This document shows positions 1,066 to 6,026 of a stretch of 28,605 nucleotides of DNA, one piece after another. Made by a program: the position numbers and the translations under genes. The DNA is taken from positions 1-28,605 of IMG/VR virus record IMGVR_UViG_3300020166_000087; one strand, given 5' to 3'. Within the stretch, counting starts at the first letter, position 1. Every line of letters starts with the position of its first letter. The notes under the pieces were generated by a model. It saw only the letters and a list, made by a program, of their open reading frames with translations. It was not told the origin of the DNA and did not search any database. Source of the stretch: a virus.

Positions 1066-1214
1066 AACAGTTTCTTTTGTGTGTTGGGGTCTCGGTAGGT
1101 CTCAAAGCGGGCGGTGCGGATCTTTCCCGTTGGGGTCTGCTGCTCAAATCCAGTCTCTAGGTACTTCCTGCCGTCCCTCTCGATTACCCGCTGATATACG
1201 ACCTCCTTACTCAT
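1062..1214 (-). CDS. Small protein (50 aa) between the two methyltransferase genes
   Basis: Not recognised. This is a hydrophilic, highly charged 50-residue protein that begins MSKEVVYQRV and ends TQKKLF. Its ATG overlaps the stop of the cytosine methyltransferase by 8 bases, and its TGA overlaps the TTG start of the ParB-methyltransferase. It is therefore tightly coupled between two DNA modification genes. No cysteines, membrane segment or known motif are visible. It may be an accessory factor of the modification genes or a spacer that keeps ribosomes on the message. The overlap pattern at both ends is the main evidence that it is real. Confidence 0.6.
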   Translation of the reverse strand: MSKEVVYQRVIERDGRKYLETGFEQQTPTGKIRTARFETYRDPNTQKKLF

Positions 1215-2277
1215 TGAGTGCTTGAAATATCTGATAAGCTACCTGTGGGACGATGGCGTTTCCATAGGCCTTTATTGACTCTCGTCGCCACTTTGGAAAG
1301 GTGATACCGTCCAGCCTTTGGGGAAGCCCATCATTTCCTCCACAAACCGGGGCGACAGTTGGGAACCGCTCCCAACGGGTGCGAGATAATTCAGGTTTTT
1401 CTGCCGGGTGTTGCTCGTGGTCTTGTGTCCGTCCCCGGCTGCTGGGGTGGGGAGCATTCCTGTTGACGCCGTGTACTTCAAGCGGTCCAACGAGTGTTTG
1501 TGCGCGTAATCCGTCTCCCCCGTTCCCCCTCCCTTCGCGTCCGATGCGTTCGGCGTTGGTAGCAGCTTCGTTCCTATCATAGCTTCTCCTTCCTGCGGTG
1601 TGAATTGCCCCTGTGCTACCGCTGTAGTCATCATCTGCCGCGACCCTGACCCGCCCAATAGTCCTGCTGTCCTCGGCGTTGGTAGCATCTGTTGAACCTG
1701 CGTAGCAAGGTTGGGCATGGTCGTCCCGTTGGGGTACTTCTCCATCCGCGCCTTGAACTTGTCGAGGTCCACCGGCTCCTCTCTGGTCGTGGGCGTGAGC
1801 CACAATCCAAATTCTGTCGCGGCGGTGCGGCGCGTTGACGCTTGCAGCAGGAAGTACGACCGGGAAGACTTCGTAGCCTTCACCTTCCAAGTCAGCGCAC
1901 ACCGTGTCGAGAACCATCCCTTCATTCCAACTAATGAGGCCGCGAACGTTCTCCGCCACGACATAGGTGGGGCGAGCCTCTCGTATGATTCTAAACATCT
2001 CCGGCCAGAGATATCTATCGTCGGATGTCCCGGCCCGCTTTCCTGCTGCACTAAAGGGCTGGCAGGGGAAGCCACCCGAAAGGACTCGTAAACGTCCTCG
2101 AAACGGAGTTGCGTCGAAGGCTTTGACATCGTCGAAGGATTGGGATTCGGGGAAGTGGTGGGCGAGGACTTGCCGGCAGAACGGATCGCGCTCGACGTGG
2201 AAGACATTGTTCCACCCCATCCATTGAGCGGCGAGGTCGAACCCTCCGATGCCTGAGAAAAGACTACCATGGGTCAT
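1207..2277 (-). CDS. dcm: DNA (cytosine-5) methyltransferase
   Basis: Transfers a methyl group from SAM to C5 of cytosine, most likely as phage anti-restriction. 356 aa from ATG 2277. Motifs are in canonical order: I LFSGIGGFD (6-14), IV GFPCQPFS with catalytic Cys72 (69-76), VI with ENV (109-111), VIII RRDRIWIVA (152-160), X YGNAIVPQVA (338-347). Residues 160-300, where the target recognition domain should lie, are unusually hydrophilic and rich in Arg, Asp, Gly and Asn, and look poorly folded. That stretch is overprinted by a second open frame (1272..2270). An in-frame extension to 2397 exists but precedes motif I, overlaps the upstream gene and is rejected. A candidate host-type -7 box lies at 2305..2312. 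The stop overlaps the next small gene by 8 bases. Confidence 0.93.
   Translation of the reverse strand: MTHGSLFSGIGGFDLAAQWMGWNNVFHVERDPFCRQVLAHHFPESQSFDDVKAFDATPFRGRLRVLSGGFPCQPFSAAGKRAGTSDDRYLWPEMFRIIREARPTYVVAENVRGLISWNEGMVLDTVCADLEGEGYEVFPVVLPAASVNAPHRRDRIWIVAHAHDQRGAGGPRQVQGADGEVPQRDDHAQPCYAGSTDATNAEDSRTIGRVRVAADDDYSGSTGAIHTAGRRSYDRNEAATNAERIGREGRGNGGDGLRAQTLVGPLEVHGVNRNAPHPSSRGRTQDHEQHPAEKPELSRTRWERFPTVAPVCGGNDGLPQRLDGITFPKWRRESIKAYGNAIVPQVAYQIFQALNE
1272..2270 (-). CDS. Second open frame overprinting the C5-methyltransferase (LPTP / MMGFP protein)
   Basis: A 332-aa frame, +1 relative to the methyltransferase, opening at an ATG 7 bases inside its start and stopping 65 bases before its end. 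It does not look like a random shadow. Residues 105-160 contain FAASLVGMKGWFSTRC, ALTWKVK and EFGLWLTPT. LPTP recurs at 196-199, 237-240 and 273-276. The end reads LSPRFVEEMMGFPKGWT (305-321). From memory, phage proteins with this make-up are in databases as stand-alone ORFs, and in some actinobacteriophage C5-methylases a similar LPTP...LNPxFVEWMMG block sits in the enzyme's own frame ahead of GNGVVP. Expression here is unproven. It could be translated from the second ATG, joined to the enzyme by frameshifting, or be a by-product of codon constraint. Confidence 0.45.
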   Translation of the reverse strand: MVVFSQASEGSTSPLNGWGGTMSSTSSAIRSAGKSSPTTSPNPNPSTMSKPSTQLRFEDVYESFRVASPASPLVQQESGPGHPTIDISGRRCLESYERLAPPMSWRRTFAASLVGMKGWFSTRCALTWKVKATKSSRSYFLLQASTRRTAATEFGLWLTPTTREEPVDLDKFKARMEKYPNGTTMPNLATQVQQMLPTPRTAGLLGGSGSRQMMTTAVAQGQFTPQEGEAMIGTKLLPTPNASDAKGGGTGETDYAHKHSLDRLKYTASTGMLPTPAAGDGHKTTSNTRQKNLNYLAPVGSGSQLSPRFVEEMMGFPKGWTVSPFQSGDESQ

Positions 2278-2304: not shown

Positions 2305-2312
2305 CAAATTTA
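2305..2312 (-). promoter_or_regulatory. Candidate Bacteroidota -7 box upstream of the methyltransferase genes
   Basis: TAAATTTG on the minus strand fits TAnnTTTG. It overlaps the stop codon of the preceding gene and would place a transcript start about 20 bases before the methyltransferase ATG. No TTTG -33 box lies at 19-21 bases upstream, so it is weaker than the four paired promoters elsewhere in the window. Confidence 0.35.
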
Positions 2313-2633
2313 CAACCTCCCCTCTTCCTTCATGATCTTCCCTGCCCACCGTTTCCCGGCCAGTCCACCCCATAGAAGATACGAAATTGTTCCGCATGCT
2401 TTGGTATCGGATTCGTCATAATACTCTTCCGCACGAGATAGATATGAATACATCCGCTGAACCGTATCGAAAGAGACCGGCTCACCCTTGGCGAGCTGTT
2501 GGGCGCGGACCTTCCCGACCTGGGTGGCGCACTTGTTGCCCACCTTCTCGTTTAGCTCGATCCCGCGCTTGGCGTTATTGCTTACCGCGTCCGGGTAATT
2601 GCTCCACGTCTTAAGGTTTACACGAATACTCAT
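2310..2633 (-). CDS. Conserved phage protein with SYLLWGG-type C-terminus
   Basis: 107 aa from ATG 2633; a longer frame opens at a GTG at 2678 but overlaps the upstream gene by 68 bases. The block NNAKRGIELNEK, followed by SYLSRAEEYYDESD and ISYLLWGGLAGKRWA, resembles a short conserved domain that I know from many phage structural or protease-associated proteins, where it often occurs as a C-terminal appendage. Here it stands alone, far from the head genes. The biochemical role is unknown. Its stop overlaps a candidate promoter for the methylases, so it is the last gene before the modification genes. Confidence 0.75.
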   Translation of the reverse strand: MSIRVNLKTWSNYPDAVSNNAKRGIELNEKVGNKCATQVGKVRAQQLAKGEPVSFDTVQRMYSYLSRAEEYYDESDTKACGTISYLLWGGLAGKRWAGKIMKEEGRL

Positions 2634-2970
2634 AGGCTCGTCGTAGTTTTTTGACCATGCGCTTGTTCTTGCCCGCACAACTGCACGGCCTCTCGTTGGC
2701 GCTGAAGGTCTGATTGAAAATATCGTACATGGTGCGCGTCTCGGCGCGGTTCAATACGCCCTTGTCTATCGCTGGCAACAGCTCCGCGAAGGCGCTCACG
2801 TCCTCGGCGGACATCTCCACGTTGCGACCGGGGAACTGGGCGTTGAGTTTCGCGCGGCGTTCCTCACACCCGCAGTCCTCAACTACGGCGTGGACGAGCT
2901 TATCGATTCCCGTCGCCTTCGTCAGCTTCGCGATCTGGTCGCCGAGCCCCTTGGATTTCTTTTCTGACAC
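2611..2970 (-). CDS. Conserved Bacteroidota-phage protein with CGC and CSC motifs
   Basis: 119 aa from GTG 2970. The start is chosen because the N-terminus VSEKKSKGLGDQIAKLTKATG matches a short phage family I recall (KSKGLGDTIEK...), whereas the longer frame from 3093 reads through the sigma-like gene. Cysteines are clustered at 33 and 35 (DCGCEERR) and at 96, 98 and 117 (PCSCAG, YSCKP), suggesting metal binding. The C-terminus is very basic (KNKRMVKKLRR), so nucleic-acid contact is possible. It overlaps the upstream gene by 71 bases, more than is usual in this genome. Function unknown. Confidence 0.7.
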   Translation of the reverse strand: MSEKKSKGLGDQIAKLTKATGIDKLVHAVVEDCGCEERRAKLNAQFPGRNVEMSAEDVSAFAELLPAIDKGVLNRAETRTMYDIFNQTFSANERPCSCAGKNKRMVKKLRRAYEYSCKP

Positions 2971-3436
2971 GTCGTATCGTAGTGTATAGTTTGTGGCGGC
3001 TGATGCCCGTCGCCTCGGCGAATGAATCGAGCGTGTGGCCCTCTTCGAAGTATATGGCAAACACCTCAGCGTCAAACCACGGCAAATCGGCAAGGCGCTC
3101 CTCGATATGCGTCAGGAGCTCGTCGCGGTGTGCCGCTACGCCGTCCCCGTCCCACCAGTCGACAATGTGCCGGGCGAACTTGCGGCGGCGCTCGATGTCC
3201 TTCCTCCACTTGTAGTGATACCGGGACGTCTTCGAGTTGTAGTTGTTGACCATCACCCGCAGGACCCAATACTTCATCTGGTCCCTTTCGAGTAGGCCGT
3301 CGATGGTGTCCTGTTTGGTTTGGTACAGCTGGAGGATGACCTCATGGAGTAGGTCCGGCCCGTCCTTCCCTGCAATCCGATACGCGGCCTGAAGCAGGTC
3401 GTCGTAATTGCGGGAGAGGTAGCCGTCCAAAGTCAC
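2900..3436 (-). CDS. Sigma-70-like (ECF-type) RNA polymerase sigma factor
   Basis: 178 aa, GTG start at 3436 overlapping the NinG stop (GTGA). Residues 10-80 resemble sigma region 2: an acidic helix (DGPDLLHEVILQLYQ) followed by YWVLRVMVNNYNSKTSRYHYKW. Residues 117-162 resemble region 4, with a helix-turn-helix in HTLDSFAEATGISRHKLYT. The protein is short and lacks other sigma regions, as in ECF-type factors and phage relatives. It lies at the end of the replication block and ahead of the packaging genes in transcription order, a sensible place for a factor switching host polymerase to late genes. Its target promoters are not identified; the paired promoters found here all have the host consensus. 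Confidence 0.72.
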   Translation of the reverse strand: MTLDGYLSRNYDDLLQAAYRIAGKDGPDLLHEVILQLYQTKQDTIDGLLERDQMKYWVLRVMVNNYNSKTSRYHYKWRKDIERRRKFARHIVDWWDGDGVAAHRDELLTHIEERLADLPWFDAEVFAIYFEEGHTLDSFAEATGISRHKLYTTIRRVRKEIQGARRPDREADEGDGNR

Positions 3437-3813
3437 AACTTCCGGAGTCTGCGGTTGTAGACGTCAATCAATGCCTCCAGTTCCTCGCTGCTGAACTTCT
3501 TTGTGGTATTCGAAAGCTGCTCCAACTCCATCGCGGTACCCTCCCCGTGGACCCTGTCCAGGTGCCGGGCAAAAAGGAACTGCTCGCCGCTGCGGAATCC
3601 GTTGCAGCTCTTGCACTGGGGCTTTACGTTCATCTCATCCCACCGGGTCGAGAACTTCGCGCGGGATTGGAAGTGACCGGCGTCGACCGTCTTCCATTGC
3701 TTCCACACCCCACAAGTAAAGCACTGCACAAAGCCACGATGGTCGGCGTCCTTGCTACGCACCCATTGCGAGAAGACCTTGTCGAGGCGTGCGATGAGCT
3801 TCTTTCGGGTCAT
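3433..3813 (-). CDS. ninG: NinG-like recombination endonuclease (Rap family)
   Basis: 126 aa from ATG 3813, which shares ATGA with the upstream stop; an alternative ATG at 3831 adds MPRPVR. Numbered from the longer form, the zinc and active-site cluster is visible: CFTC (37-40), DAGHFQSR (50-57) and PQCKSC (71-76), followed by GEQFLFARHLDRVHGEG. This is the pattern of lambda NinG (Rap), a structure-specific nuclease acting on recombination intermediates such as Holliday junctions. The N-terminal extension of the lambda protein is missing. It sits in the replication and recombination block, consistent with processing branched DNA before packaging. Confidence 0.85.
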   Translation of the reverse strand: MTRKKLIARLDKVFSQWVRSKDADHRGFVQCFTCGVWKQWKTVDAGHFQSRAKFSTRWDEMNVKPQCKSCNGFRSGEQFLFARHLDRVHGEGTAMELEQLSNTTKKFSSEELEALIDVYNRRLRKL

Positions 3814-3944
3814 ACGAACAGGGCGAGGCATGCGAGGAGAAGAACAACGAGATTGAACAGACGGACCTGGTGCTCTTGGTAGAACTCCGCGCCCACCTGC
3901 GCGAAGGTGAGGATGGCAATGGCGACGAGTATTCCCTGAATCAT
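3810..3944 (-). CDS. Small two-helix membrane protein (44 aa)
   Basis: Starts MIQGILVAIAILTFAQVG and ends LVVLLLACLALFV, two hydrophobic stretches separated by a short charged linker (EFYQEHQVR). Its ATG overlaps the preceding stop (ATGA at 3941..3944) and its TGA overlaps the NinG ATG, so it fits the genome's coupling pattern exactly. It is probably an inner-membrane hairpin. Its place among replication genes argues against a classical holin; superinfection exclusion or membrane tethering are guesses. Confidence 0.7.
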   Translation of the reverse strand: MIQGILVAIAILTFAQVGAEFYQEHQVRLFNLVVLLLACLALFV

Positions 3945-4504
3945 TCCGGTGGCTTGATTTGTCCGAGGTCGATGAGATCCTTTACGGTTACCAATATAGC
4001 CTTCCGTTCCTCTCGTGTGCCCGAATGCCTTTGGTATGGGTCGTGTTCGGGACGATGCTTACGTTCTAGAATCCTCTCGGCTCTGGTCTCCTCCCACTTC
4101 CGGCAGCACTCCATAAGCTCGCCCAACTTTAGGCGCCCGTACATGGGGCCGAACTTGTTGCGCTTGATGCCTTCAAAGACCAGCGCGAACTCTTCCAGCT
4201 TAAACGCCGGAAACTCCTCCATGAGCGCCCGAGCCGTCTCGCTCAGTTCCTCGTTGTCCTGGATGGTTTTGGTCGCGTCCACGAACTTAATGAGCCTGCC
4301 CAGCTCGGCGAGGAACCACGCCCGGACCATTTGCGGGTTCAGCCTGAGTGCCGTCCGGATGTTCGTTCCCTCCTCCCACGCATTTTGAGGGGTCAAATTT
4401 CCACGTTCTCCCTTCAGGAGTAGCTCAGTCCTACCCGTTAGCGATAAAGTCCTTGAGGCCGTCCGGAGTGAAGCCTGCGGGGTTAAATCCTTTTCGTCTG
4501 TCAT
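3941..4504 (-). CDS. Replication-associated protein, possibly a helicase loader
   Basis: 187 aa from ATG 4504. The central part is helical: FAELGRLIKF-like segments, then EEFALVFEGIKRNKFGP and YGRLKLGELMECCRKWEE. A tail of basic and acidic residues follows (RAERILERKHRPEHDPY). I associate this helical block with proteins that follow the DnaD/O-type replication protein in Bacteroidota phages, so a loader or primosome partner is plausible. No Walker A motif is present, so it is not an ATPase. It overlaps the upstream replication gene by 74 bases, which is long for this genome; an in-frame TTG start further down would remove the overlap. Confidence 0.6.
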   Translation of the reverse strand: MTDEKDLTPQASLRTASRTLSLTGRTELLLKGERGNLTPQNAWEEGTNIRTALRLNPQMVRAWFLAELGRLIKFVDATKTIQDNEELSETARALMEEFPAFKLEEFALVFEGIKRNKFGPMYGRLKLGELMECCRKWEETRAERILERKHRPEHDPYQRHSGTREERKAILVTVKDLIDLGQIKPPE

Positions 4505-5102
4505 TGCTTTGGTTTTTGCGTTCTCGATTGATCCACTGGTTCACCTTCGGTTTCCACTTGGCGATTGGCGTCCCGTTCACCATCCATCCGTTGGCCTCGT
4601 AGTAGTTCCAGAATTCGGGGCCTAAAGTAGGGGCCAGCTCGTGCGCGCCTCGGTCCTCCATGTACTCGATGACCTCCTCCTCTGTCGGTCTCTGATACTC
4701 CAACTCCTCACGCGCGTCTTTCTTAGTTCTCTTAGAAGTATTTGTTTCTATATGTACACGGGCCAGATTTGGCCCATCGATGGTCCGGTTTTGGCTTATC
4801 GATGGTTCAGTTTCGTCCCATGCATGGTCCGGAATCGTACCAAGGCAATACGTGTGCCTGCGGTCGAATCCATTCGGCTTCCTGTAGATGGCCTCCACCT
4901 CCTCCAGCTTGACGAGAGCCCGCTTGATTTTTGACGGCGTAAGGAAGGGCAAATACTCCGCCATTTCTTTGATGCCCTGCGTCATGCACGGCTCTTCCCC
5001 GGCGGACGTGTTGCGCTCTATCCAATACTTGAGATGGGCGAGTACGGCAGCGGCAGGAAGTCCCCACCGCTGCGCGTCGTCTGTATCGAACCAGTATTTC
5101 AT
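4431..5102 (-). CDS. Winged-helix replication initiation protein (phage O / DnaD-like)
   Basis: 223 aa, with ATG sharing ATGA with the neighbour's stop (5099..5102). Residues 10-90 form a winged-helix domain typical of phage replication proteins: TQGIKEMAEYLPFLTPSKIK, ALVKLEEVEAIYRKPNG, then HTYCLG. After a hydrophilic linker, residues 136-195 carry RPTEEEVIEYMEDRG, EFWNYYEANGWMV and WKPKVNQWINRE, a C-terminal motif common in phage replication proteins that recruit the helicase or primase. It probably binds the origin and loads host replication proteins. No phage DNA polymerase or helicase gene is seen, so replication must rely on the host. Confidence 0.75.
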   Translation of the reverse strand: MKYWFDTDDAQRWGLPAAAVLAHLKYWIERNTSAGEEPCMTQGIKEMAEYLPFLTPSKIKRALVKLEEVEAIYRKPNGFDRRHTYCLGTIPDHAWDETEPSISQNRTIDGPNLARVHIETNTSKRTKKDAREELEYQRPTEEEVIEYMEDRGAHELAPTLGPEFWNYYEANGWMVNGTPIAKWKPKVNQWINRERKNQSNDRRKGFNPAGFTPDGLKDFIANG

Positions 5103-5290
5103 GGCGGGAACATACCATCGGGATCGAGCTTTTTCAAAGCCTTCTGAACTTTGGCTATCTCTAGCCTGAGTTTGTTCTTCTCCCGCTTGGGGATTGTCTC
5201 GTCGCAGTAGTCCCGCAGGAGGTTGCGGCGGTGCTCCCGAAGGAACATAATCCGCGCGACCCGCTCTTCGTAGGTTATATCAGTCCTCAT
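5099..5290 (-). CDS. Small basic protein of the replication operon (63 aa)
   Basis: Not recognised. The protein is highly charged and predicted helical, with basic stretches such as REHRRNLLRDYCDETIPKRE and KNKLRLEIAKVQKALKKL, and no membrane segment. It overlaps the next gene by ATGA and the preceding zinc-ribbon gene by 11 bases. The composition suggests a nucleic-acid-binding or coiled-coil adaptor protein. Confidence 0.65.
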   Translation of the reverse strand: MRTDITYEERVARIMFLREHRRNLLRDYCDETIPKREKNKLRLEIAKVQKALKKLDPDGMFPP

Positions 5291-5393
5291 CTTCGACGTA
5301 TTGGCAGTGTTCTTTGCATTCTGGGCAGATGCCCACGTCTTCGCTGGTTAGGACCGCAGCGGCCCCACAACACTCGCTTATTCTTCCATCCAT
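5280..5393 (-). CDS. Tiny zinc-ribbon-like protein (37 aa)
   Basis: Begins MDGRISECCGA and contains ICPECKEHC: two cysteines at 8-9, then C23, C26 and C30. Together they give a four-ligand zinc ribbon of minimal size. The ATG lies inside the 3' end of the upstream gene and the TGA overlaps the next start, so it fits the compact operon. From memory, short CCGA...CPxCKEHC proteins are common in Bacteroidota phages and mobile elements, with unknown role. The acidic tail (VEDED) resembles small protein-interaction modules. Confidence 0.65.
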   Translation of the reverse strand: MDGRISECCGAAAVLTSEDVGICPECKEHCQYVEDED

Positions 5394-5812
5394 TCGTTGA
5401 AGGCTTGCTCGTATTCCTTAGCCAAGGCGATGACGCCCTTTACCATCACCTGGTGCGGTAGCTCGAAAGACTTGTGTTTGTACTGGTTGGCCCACGCCAT
5501 CCCCGCAACCTTAAAGCACATCCCCCGGATGATTTGCTTGTCCCTGTCCGGGTTTGGCTTGGCGGGTTGGAACTGCTGGAAGCCTCCCGGCGGGGGTGGG
5601 CTCTTGGAAACCTTGAGCTTCTTGCCGTACTGGTCGTCGCTCTTGATTTCGTAATAGACCTCATCGCCCACCTTGTACGGGGGCTCCTGGCTCTTGCTGT
5701 TGGCTTCTCCTACGGTGCCATCGTTAAAAGCAATCTCGAAGGTGTACATCGTCCCGTGGCGACCCTTCCAATCGCCCTTGCCTTGGATGGACTCAATTTG
5801 CGCTTGAACCAT
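5378..5812 (-). CDS. OB-fold-like protein, possible single-strand DNA-binding protein
   Basis: 144 aa from ATG 5812; a TTG at 5836 would add 8 residues and increase the overlap with the repressor gene. The first 70 residues look like a small beta barrel: VQAQIESIQGKGDWKGRHG, TMYTFEIAFNDGTVGEANS and YKVGDEVYYEIKS. A Pro-rich linker follows (SPPPPGG), then a helical C-terminus (ELPHQVMVKGVIALAKEYE). This layout and its position as second gene of the replication operon suggest an ssDNA-binding or replication accessory protein. The assignment rests on architecture, not on a diagnostic motif. Confidence 0.6.
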   Translation of the reverse strand: MVQAQIESIQGKGDWKGRHGTMYTFEIAFNDGTVGEANSKSQEPPYKVGDEVYYEIKSDDQYGKKLKVSKSPPPPGGFQQFQPAKPNPDRDKQIIRGMCFKVAGMAWANQYKHKSFELPHQVMVKGVIALAKEYEQAFNEWMEE

Positions 5813-6026
5813 AGTTCGGGGGGTTTTTAAGGTCAATGTTTAACCACTCGCACACCTGCCCCAACTCGTTCAGAAAGAACTGTCCGGGATCCTTGAGCTT
5901 CCGGTTCATCGTTGCCGGGTGGATTCCTAGCTCTTGCGCAAGCTGCTTCTGGGTCTTCTTCTGCATCGCCATCTCTGCAACGATTGCACGGTTCACCGAC
6001 GTGAACCAACGTTTATATTTCGTCAT
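5793..6026 (-). CDS. Cro/CI-like helix-turn-helix regulator
   Basis: 77 aa, ATG at 6026. The HTH is at about residues 25-45 (TQKQLAQELGIHPATMNRKL), followed by a short helical part and an unstructured tail. It is a single-domain Cro-like protein without a peptidase or dimerisation domain. It is the first gene downstream of a strong host-type promoter, and that promoter overlaps an inverted repeat suited to an operator. It probably controls the divergent promoters, autoregulating its own operon and the rightward operon. No integrase is present, so a lytic/lysogenic switch is not supported. Confidence 0.8.
   Translation of the reverse strand: MTKYKRWFTSVNRAIVAEMAMQKKTQKQLAQELGIHPATMNRKLKDPGQFFLNELGQVCEWLNIDLKNPPNYGSSAN

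Follow-up and report, generated by a model that had tools for sequence, protein, structure and literature searches.

A widely conserved gene nested within phage C5-cytosine methyltransferase genes most likely encodes a DNA-recognition subunit

The locus analyzed here lies in a 28,605-base stretch of viral DNA (hereafter, the window) taken from IMG/VR virus record IMGVR_UViG_3300020166_000087. The minus strand carries a C5-methyltransferase gene (frame A, 2277-1207, 1,071 nt, 356 aa), within which a second frame in the +1 register (frame B) is open for 332 codons, from an ATG at 2270 to 1272, as reported by the first-pass annotation. That annotation described the overlap as spanning almost the entire gene; the portion under selection (1272-2129, minus strand, 285 aa) is shorter, covering approximately 858 nt of the 1,071-nt gene. 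The upstream neighbors, also on the minus strand (2310-6026), show PHROG matches to a sigma-factor-like protein, a NinG/Rap junction endonuclease, a replication initiation protein and a repressor-like HTH protein, and look like a phage early region. Among bacterial genomes, the closest relatives come mostly from Bacteroidota (L315-L322; Pedobacter, Edaphocola, Chitinophaga, Phocaeicola, Prevotella and others), suggesting this phylum as the host group of the window phage.

Frame A was assigned to the C5-cytosine methyltransferase family PF00145 (Pfam DNA_methylase, 3e-46) and carries the motifs I, IV (PCQ), VI (ENV), VIII (RxR) and X (GN) expected of this enzyme class, with PCQ, E109, R153/R155 and G339 N340 invariant across 116 members. 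Residues 1-166 (1780-2277, minus strand) make up the large catalytic domain with motifs I-VIII, which AlphaFold models with high confidence over most of its length (pLDDT mostly 85-98), which Foldseek matches to M.HhaI (E ~1e-14), and for which omega_A ranges from 0.10 to 0.17. High confidence is regained near the C-terminus, at the motif X helices (AYGNAIVPQVA, residues 327-356; 1210-1299, minus strand; pLDDT 92-96 near the model end), which fall mostly past the stop codon of B. The intervening residues 167-315 (1333-1779, minus strand), occupying the place in which a recognition domain is expected, are of low complexity, near neutral and disordered, with pLDDT mostly below 50 (182-300 and 306-315), in keeping with the loss of globular character that had been noticed there from the sequence. 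The PDB phmmer match to M.HhaI (6e-19) covers residues 5-164 only, and in A-type genes the best profile stretch ends near position 163-193. Neither a recognition domain nor motif IX was found in the A chain. Since most of A between the catalytic domain and motif X is unfolded and the M.HhaI match ends at residue 164, frame A is best described as a methyltransferase without a small domain.

The features of frame B described in the first-pass annotation, namely three LPTP blocks, a WFSTRCALTWKVK block and an ending LSPRFVEEMMGFPKGWT, are all present. Its N-terminal domain (SGRRCLE...LTWKVKATKSSR; 1830-2042, minus strand) is predicted to form two helices and a beta hairpin (AlphaFold pLDDT ~80 for B residues 40-100), with no fold match in the PDB. 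It is followed by the LPTP-repeat stretch (1395-1823, minus strand), the putative target-recognition region, and by motif IX (QLSPRFVEEMMGFPKGWTV; 1305-1361, minus strand). The B protein matches phrog_1008 (E=1.1e-23), as do 124 of the 124 B proteins in the family alignment; this group is labelled only "DNA methyltransferase", and the overlapping-frame position of its members is not mentioned. Searches of Pfam and NCBIfam identified no family for B, a PDB profile search returned no match, and a Hantavirus hit in one of the 124 B members was dismissed as chance. Modeled by itself with AlphaFold, B gives a weak prediction (mean pLDDT 61.6, pTM 0.34), which counts against a two-subunit enzyme. 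Foldseek searches with this model recovered no C5-methyltransferase small domain and no PDB match at E<=0.001, and a viral structure library yielded two weak, uninformative matches. Such a weak model might be expected if B is a half-domain whose folding depends on its partner, but it is also the point at which the case is most exposed.

The identity of frame B was addressed by comparison with canonical enzymes and with differently arranged relatives. In hhalign comparisons of the B profile with canonical enzymes, the best match, over a short stretch, was to motif IX (LTPRECARLQGFPD), with P from 0.0024 to 0.043 in four comparisons. The distance from B motif IX to A motif X is 31.7 codons across 160 loci and 21.7 across 107, compared to mostly 29-34 in canonical enzymes. 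According to the first-pass annotation, LPTP...FVEWMMG blocks occur in the enzyme frame of some actinobacteriophages, and this is the case for IrishSherpFalk gp71 (from a Mycobacterium phage) and prophiGD91-2 gp27, in which motifs I-VIII, LPTP repeats, motif IX (LNPAFPEWMMGWPTGWV in IrishSherpFalk gp71) and motif X succeed one another in a single frame. These actinobacteriophage examples were found with an LPTP-type query, and the evidence consists of the retrieved records. The profile of the one-piece family aligns collinearly with A residues 1-165 (E=1e-53) and B residues 145-278 (E=2e-14; 3e-8 in pairwise alignment). In Miramae, two overlapping genes (gp79/gp78) carry motifs I-VIII and then the LPTP region with motifs IX and X, respectively, and in L362 and L364 the counterpart of the B repeat stretch belongs to the enzyme frame, where it follows motif VIII and precedes motif X. 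The same half-enzyme thus occurs in one frame, split and nested at +1, as anticipated by the earlier suggestion of a frame exchange between C5-methylase subfamilies, and this argues that B very probably represents the recognition half, that is, the DNA-recognition part missing from the methyltransferase. In some one-piece enzymes (L362 965-1498, L364 1261-1629) the +1 frame keeps a B-like N-terminal domain and one LPTP block, and then stops. Because the one-piece enzymes keep no in-frame copy of this N-terminal domain, B is more than a displaced recognition domain, a point against the two-subunit reading.

The absence of any counterpart of the N-terminal domain in C5-methyltransferases, the lack of a recognizable fold for B alone and the frequency of accessory proteins among viral overlapping genes would also be compatible with B being a separate protein with another job (e.g. 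a regulator or an anti-restriction protein), leaving A as a methyltransferase active by itself. We regard this as unlikely, given that the actinobacteriophage enzymes include the LPTP and motif IX half themselves, that A has no foldable, selected recognition domain, and that no B gene apart from a methyltransferase was seen among the loci examined.

Most relatives keep a B-frame ATG at 21-23 codons upstream of PCQ, and the A-synonymous rate drops just at this point. In the best aligned column for this internal ATG, the A codon has the form xAT in 91% of cases, versus a background of 37% (p=3e-14); in the window it corresponds to 2127-2129 (minus strand), the likely start codon of B. The ATG at 2270, located 7 nt after the A start and taken as the B start in the first-pass annotation, did not hold up, since the corresponding A codon has the xAT form at no more than the background frequency (37% of relatives) and the region is neutral for B (omega_B 0.83); the 5' part of the 332-codon frame (2130-2270, minus strand) is hence probably untranslated. 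The conserved internal ATG and the limits of selection therefore define the window B gene as 2129-1272, encoding 285 aa. All 45 scorable sequences of the L008 clade share one B-frame ATG, and a Shine-Dalgarno core precedes 53% of the distinct B starts of that clade. No Shine-Dalgarno site was found before the B start in the window clade, which again counts against the two-subunit reading; its absence is expected if the host belongs to the Bacteroidota. The choice of arginine codons at the DERSI site was considered as a possible mark of internal ribosome binding in proteobacterial members; it is suggestive in some sequences, but with too few distinct ones to count, and was set aside. The same observations bear on programmed ribosomal frameshifting from A into B, which would generate one chimeric chain with the catalytic domain, the LPTP region and motif IX and would account for both the fixed register of the two frames and the existence of one-piece relatives. 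The conserved B-frame ATG, the onset of selection at that codon and the Shine-Dalgarno sequences in half of one clade point instead to independent initiation, and the location of motif X in frame A would require two shifts, making this explanation very improbable.

Whether B is a gene was assessed through its openness and substitution pattern across homologs. Frame B is open at +1 in all 284 homologous loci with a scorable A, 80 of which were picked by A similarity alone; an earlier count had given 166 of 166. In 69 distinct A-selected genes, the B core contains no stop codons, versus 339 expected from synonymous-codon shuffles of A, a count slightly favored by defining the core so that the B stop closes it, and the +2 frame of the 69 A-selected genes contains 977 stops, near the 1,040 expected. 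Stop avoidance beyond shuffles was also obtained in a whole-gene version with control genes, and no avoidance was detected in 29 canonical C5-methyltransferases from Bacteroidota genomes (650 stops versus 638 expected). Omega values were computed by region for 38 independent gene pairs. Before the B start, omega_A is 0.10 and omega_B 0.83; from the B start to motif VIII they are 0.17 and 0.41; in the variable stretch, which includes the LPTP repeats, 0.90 (0.82-1.00) and 0.43; in the last 30 codons of B, 0.19 and 0.18; and after the B stop, 0.17 and 0.89. Purifying selection on B is thus confined within its limits, as in overlapping genes, and A is under constraint everywhere except in the central stretch. 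In that variable stretch, the first position of A codons, which is the third position of B codons, changes fastest, and the substitution pattern was seen again in two other clades. Similarity in B alone proves nothing, because part of it is forced by A; for instance, VANTN in A entails WPTPT in B.

A shadow ORF, whose openness and similarity would be by-products of A conservation and codon use, might be suspected from the overlap of the best-conserved B blocks with conserved A motifs, from which some similarity follows, and from the frequency of long +1 frames in high-GC genes, but it is hardly credible and was rejected on stop avoidance and substitution classes: stops are avoided beyond synonymous shuffles, A-synonymous constraint starts and stops together with B, the central stretch is neutral for A and not for B, and canonical enzymes are without any such effect. 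The first-pass annotation had itself named two signs of a shadow ORF, stops in close homologs or a lack of constraint beyond that forced by A, and neither was observed. B is a real protein under selection, open far beyond chance, and of the two options that annotation had offered, the one of two genuine proteins is borne out by stop avoidance, substitutions and the phrog_1008 matches. At the level of sequence comparison, selection on both frames, the limits of B and the homology of its C-terminal half to the recognition half of one-piece enzymes are all demonstrated.

We consider it highly probable that the locus encodes a two-subunit DNA-cytosine methyltransferase of the M.EcoHK31I kind, with alpha in frame A, beta in frame B and recognition in the overlapping frame. 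Alpha would comprise the AdoMet-binding and catalytic domain (motifs I-VIII), a floppy linker and motif X, and beta, with a separate start at the internal ATG some 50 codons downstream of the A start, would supply the small DNA-recognition domain, composed of the N-terminal domain, the LPTP array and motif IX. A single message would yield both chains, which would combine into an active, sequence-specific enzyme that needs the two of them, with the LPTP region reading the DNA target. In the central stretch selection would act on beta, and alpha need only avoid stops there, because motif X must be reached. It is somewhat less certain, but still favored, that the DNA specificity of this large phage methyltransferase family is encoded wholly in the overlapping frame, that the recognition half has moved between frames to give one-piece, split and nested forms, and that the LPTP array evolves in beta as alpha drifts neutrally as a linker. 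The biological role may be protection from host restriction or another modification, as is generally assumed for phage orphan methyltransferases. No restriction gene was recognized in the stretch examined.

The gene for the small polypeptide of M.EcoHK31I lies within that for the large polypeptide, in an alternative reading frame. Both M.EcoHK31I and M.AquI are C5-methyltransferases made of two polypeptides; in the former, motifs I-VIII and X are on the large polypeptide and motif IX on the small one (PMC3404938). The window locus, compared by published description, resembles M.EcoHK31I (isoschizomer M.EaeI) in having motifs I-VIII and X in A and motif IX in B. The predicted recognition domain of M.EcoHK31I sits in the large subunit (PMC3404938), which counts against the two-subunit reading here, whereas in the recognition stretch of the window A shows neutrality and disorder, and it is B that is under selection; the window gene is also phage-borne and belongs to a family spread over many phyla. 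M.AquI shares the division into catalytic and recognition subunits, a layout seen as well in Miramae gp79/gp78, where motif X is in gp78, and has motif X in its small subunit (PMC3404938); in the window, by contrast, the genes are nested and motif X is in frame A, mostly past the B stop. The one-piece LPTP enzymes (IrishSherpFalk gp71, prophiGD91-2 gp27) share with the window the catalytic domain, the LPTP repeats and motif IX, as well as their order, but all in one frame, and their B-frame is mostly closed downstream.

The distribution of the overlap was surveyed with tblastn. The window B protein matched 46 of 50,697 phage records, nearly all of them annotated as methyltransferase at the match, and B queries from other clades matched 196, 19, 140 and 57 records (overlapping sets). 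The hosts in these searches include Escherichia, Klebsiella, Salmonella, Pseudomonas, Xanthomonas, Rhodobacter, Paenibacillus, Lacticaseibacillus, Synechococcus, Microcystis, Bacteroides, Porphyromonas, Mycobacterium and others. The overlap is thus spread over phages that infect Bacteroidota, Bacillota, Pseudomonadota, Cyanobacteriota and Actinomycetota, the classic phage N15 among them, with B always at the same +1 register in the inspected loci. Several copies are altered. In Mycobacterium phage Seabastian (L365, 1362-2121) and several related phages, a frameshift cuts both frames relative to Spikelee (L173), and the pieces are annotated as two DNA methylases. In two prophages (L196, L199) and Candidatus Bacteroides pullicola (L321), probably decaying copies, frameshifts run B into the C-terminal part of A. 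In Dunaliella viridis virus SI2 (L176, 1398-1802), motifs I-VIII have been lost through an internal deletion; what remains is a short "cytosine methylase" that retains the variable region and motif X, together with a shortened B. As these five cases resemble deletions or frameshifts, they are no proof of an independent B gene.

The overlap is almost always absent from the records, some of which annotate the second frame only. In Porphyromonas phage018a (L006, 1617-2231), Komagataeibacter phage phiKX1 (L175, 1840-2448) and Microcystis phage Mwe-JY08 (L171, 392-652), the annotation gives just a hypothetical protein that corresponds to all or part of the second frame, and A is missing. B has been annotated inside the methyltransferase gene as "g55 internal gene" in Paenibacillus phage Shelly and as "putative Mte8-like protein" in Escherichia phage K1G. 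The literature searched, which comprised open papers and not subscription ones, contained no analysis of the function or selection of B and no description of a phage overlap of this type. A phage annotation criterion penalizes overlap (PMC6070908).

Long same-strand overlaps with both proteins under selection are thought to be rare in double-stranded DNA phages. The overlapping gene described here is real and widely conserved and, judging from its sequence relationships, most likely encodes the recognition subunit of a two-subunit methyltransferase. On this reading, many phage "Dcm" proteins may lack activity or specificity when expressed by themselves, and the one-piece, split and nested forms provide a natural series in which the division of an enzyme between frames can be studied.
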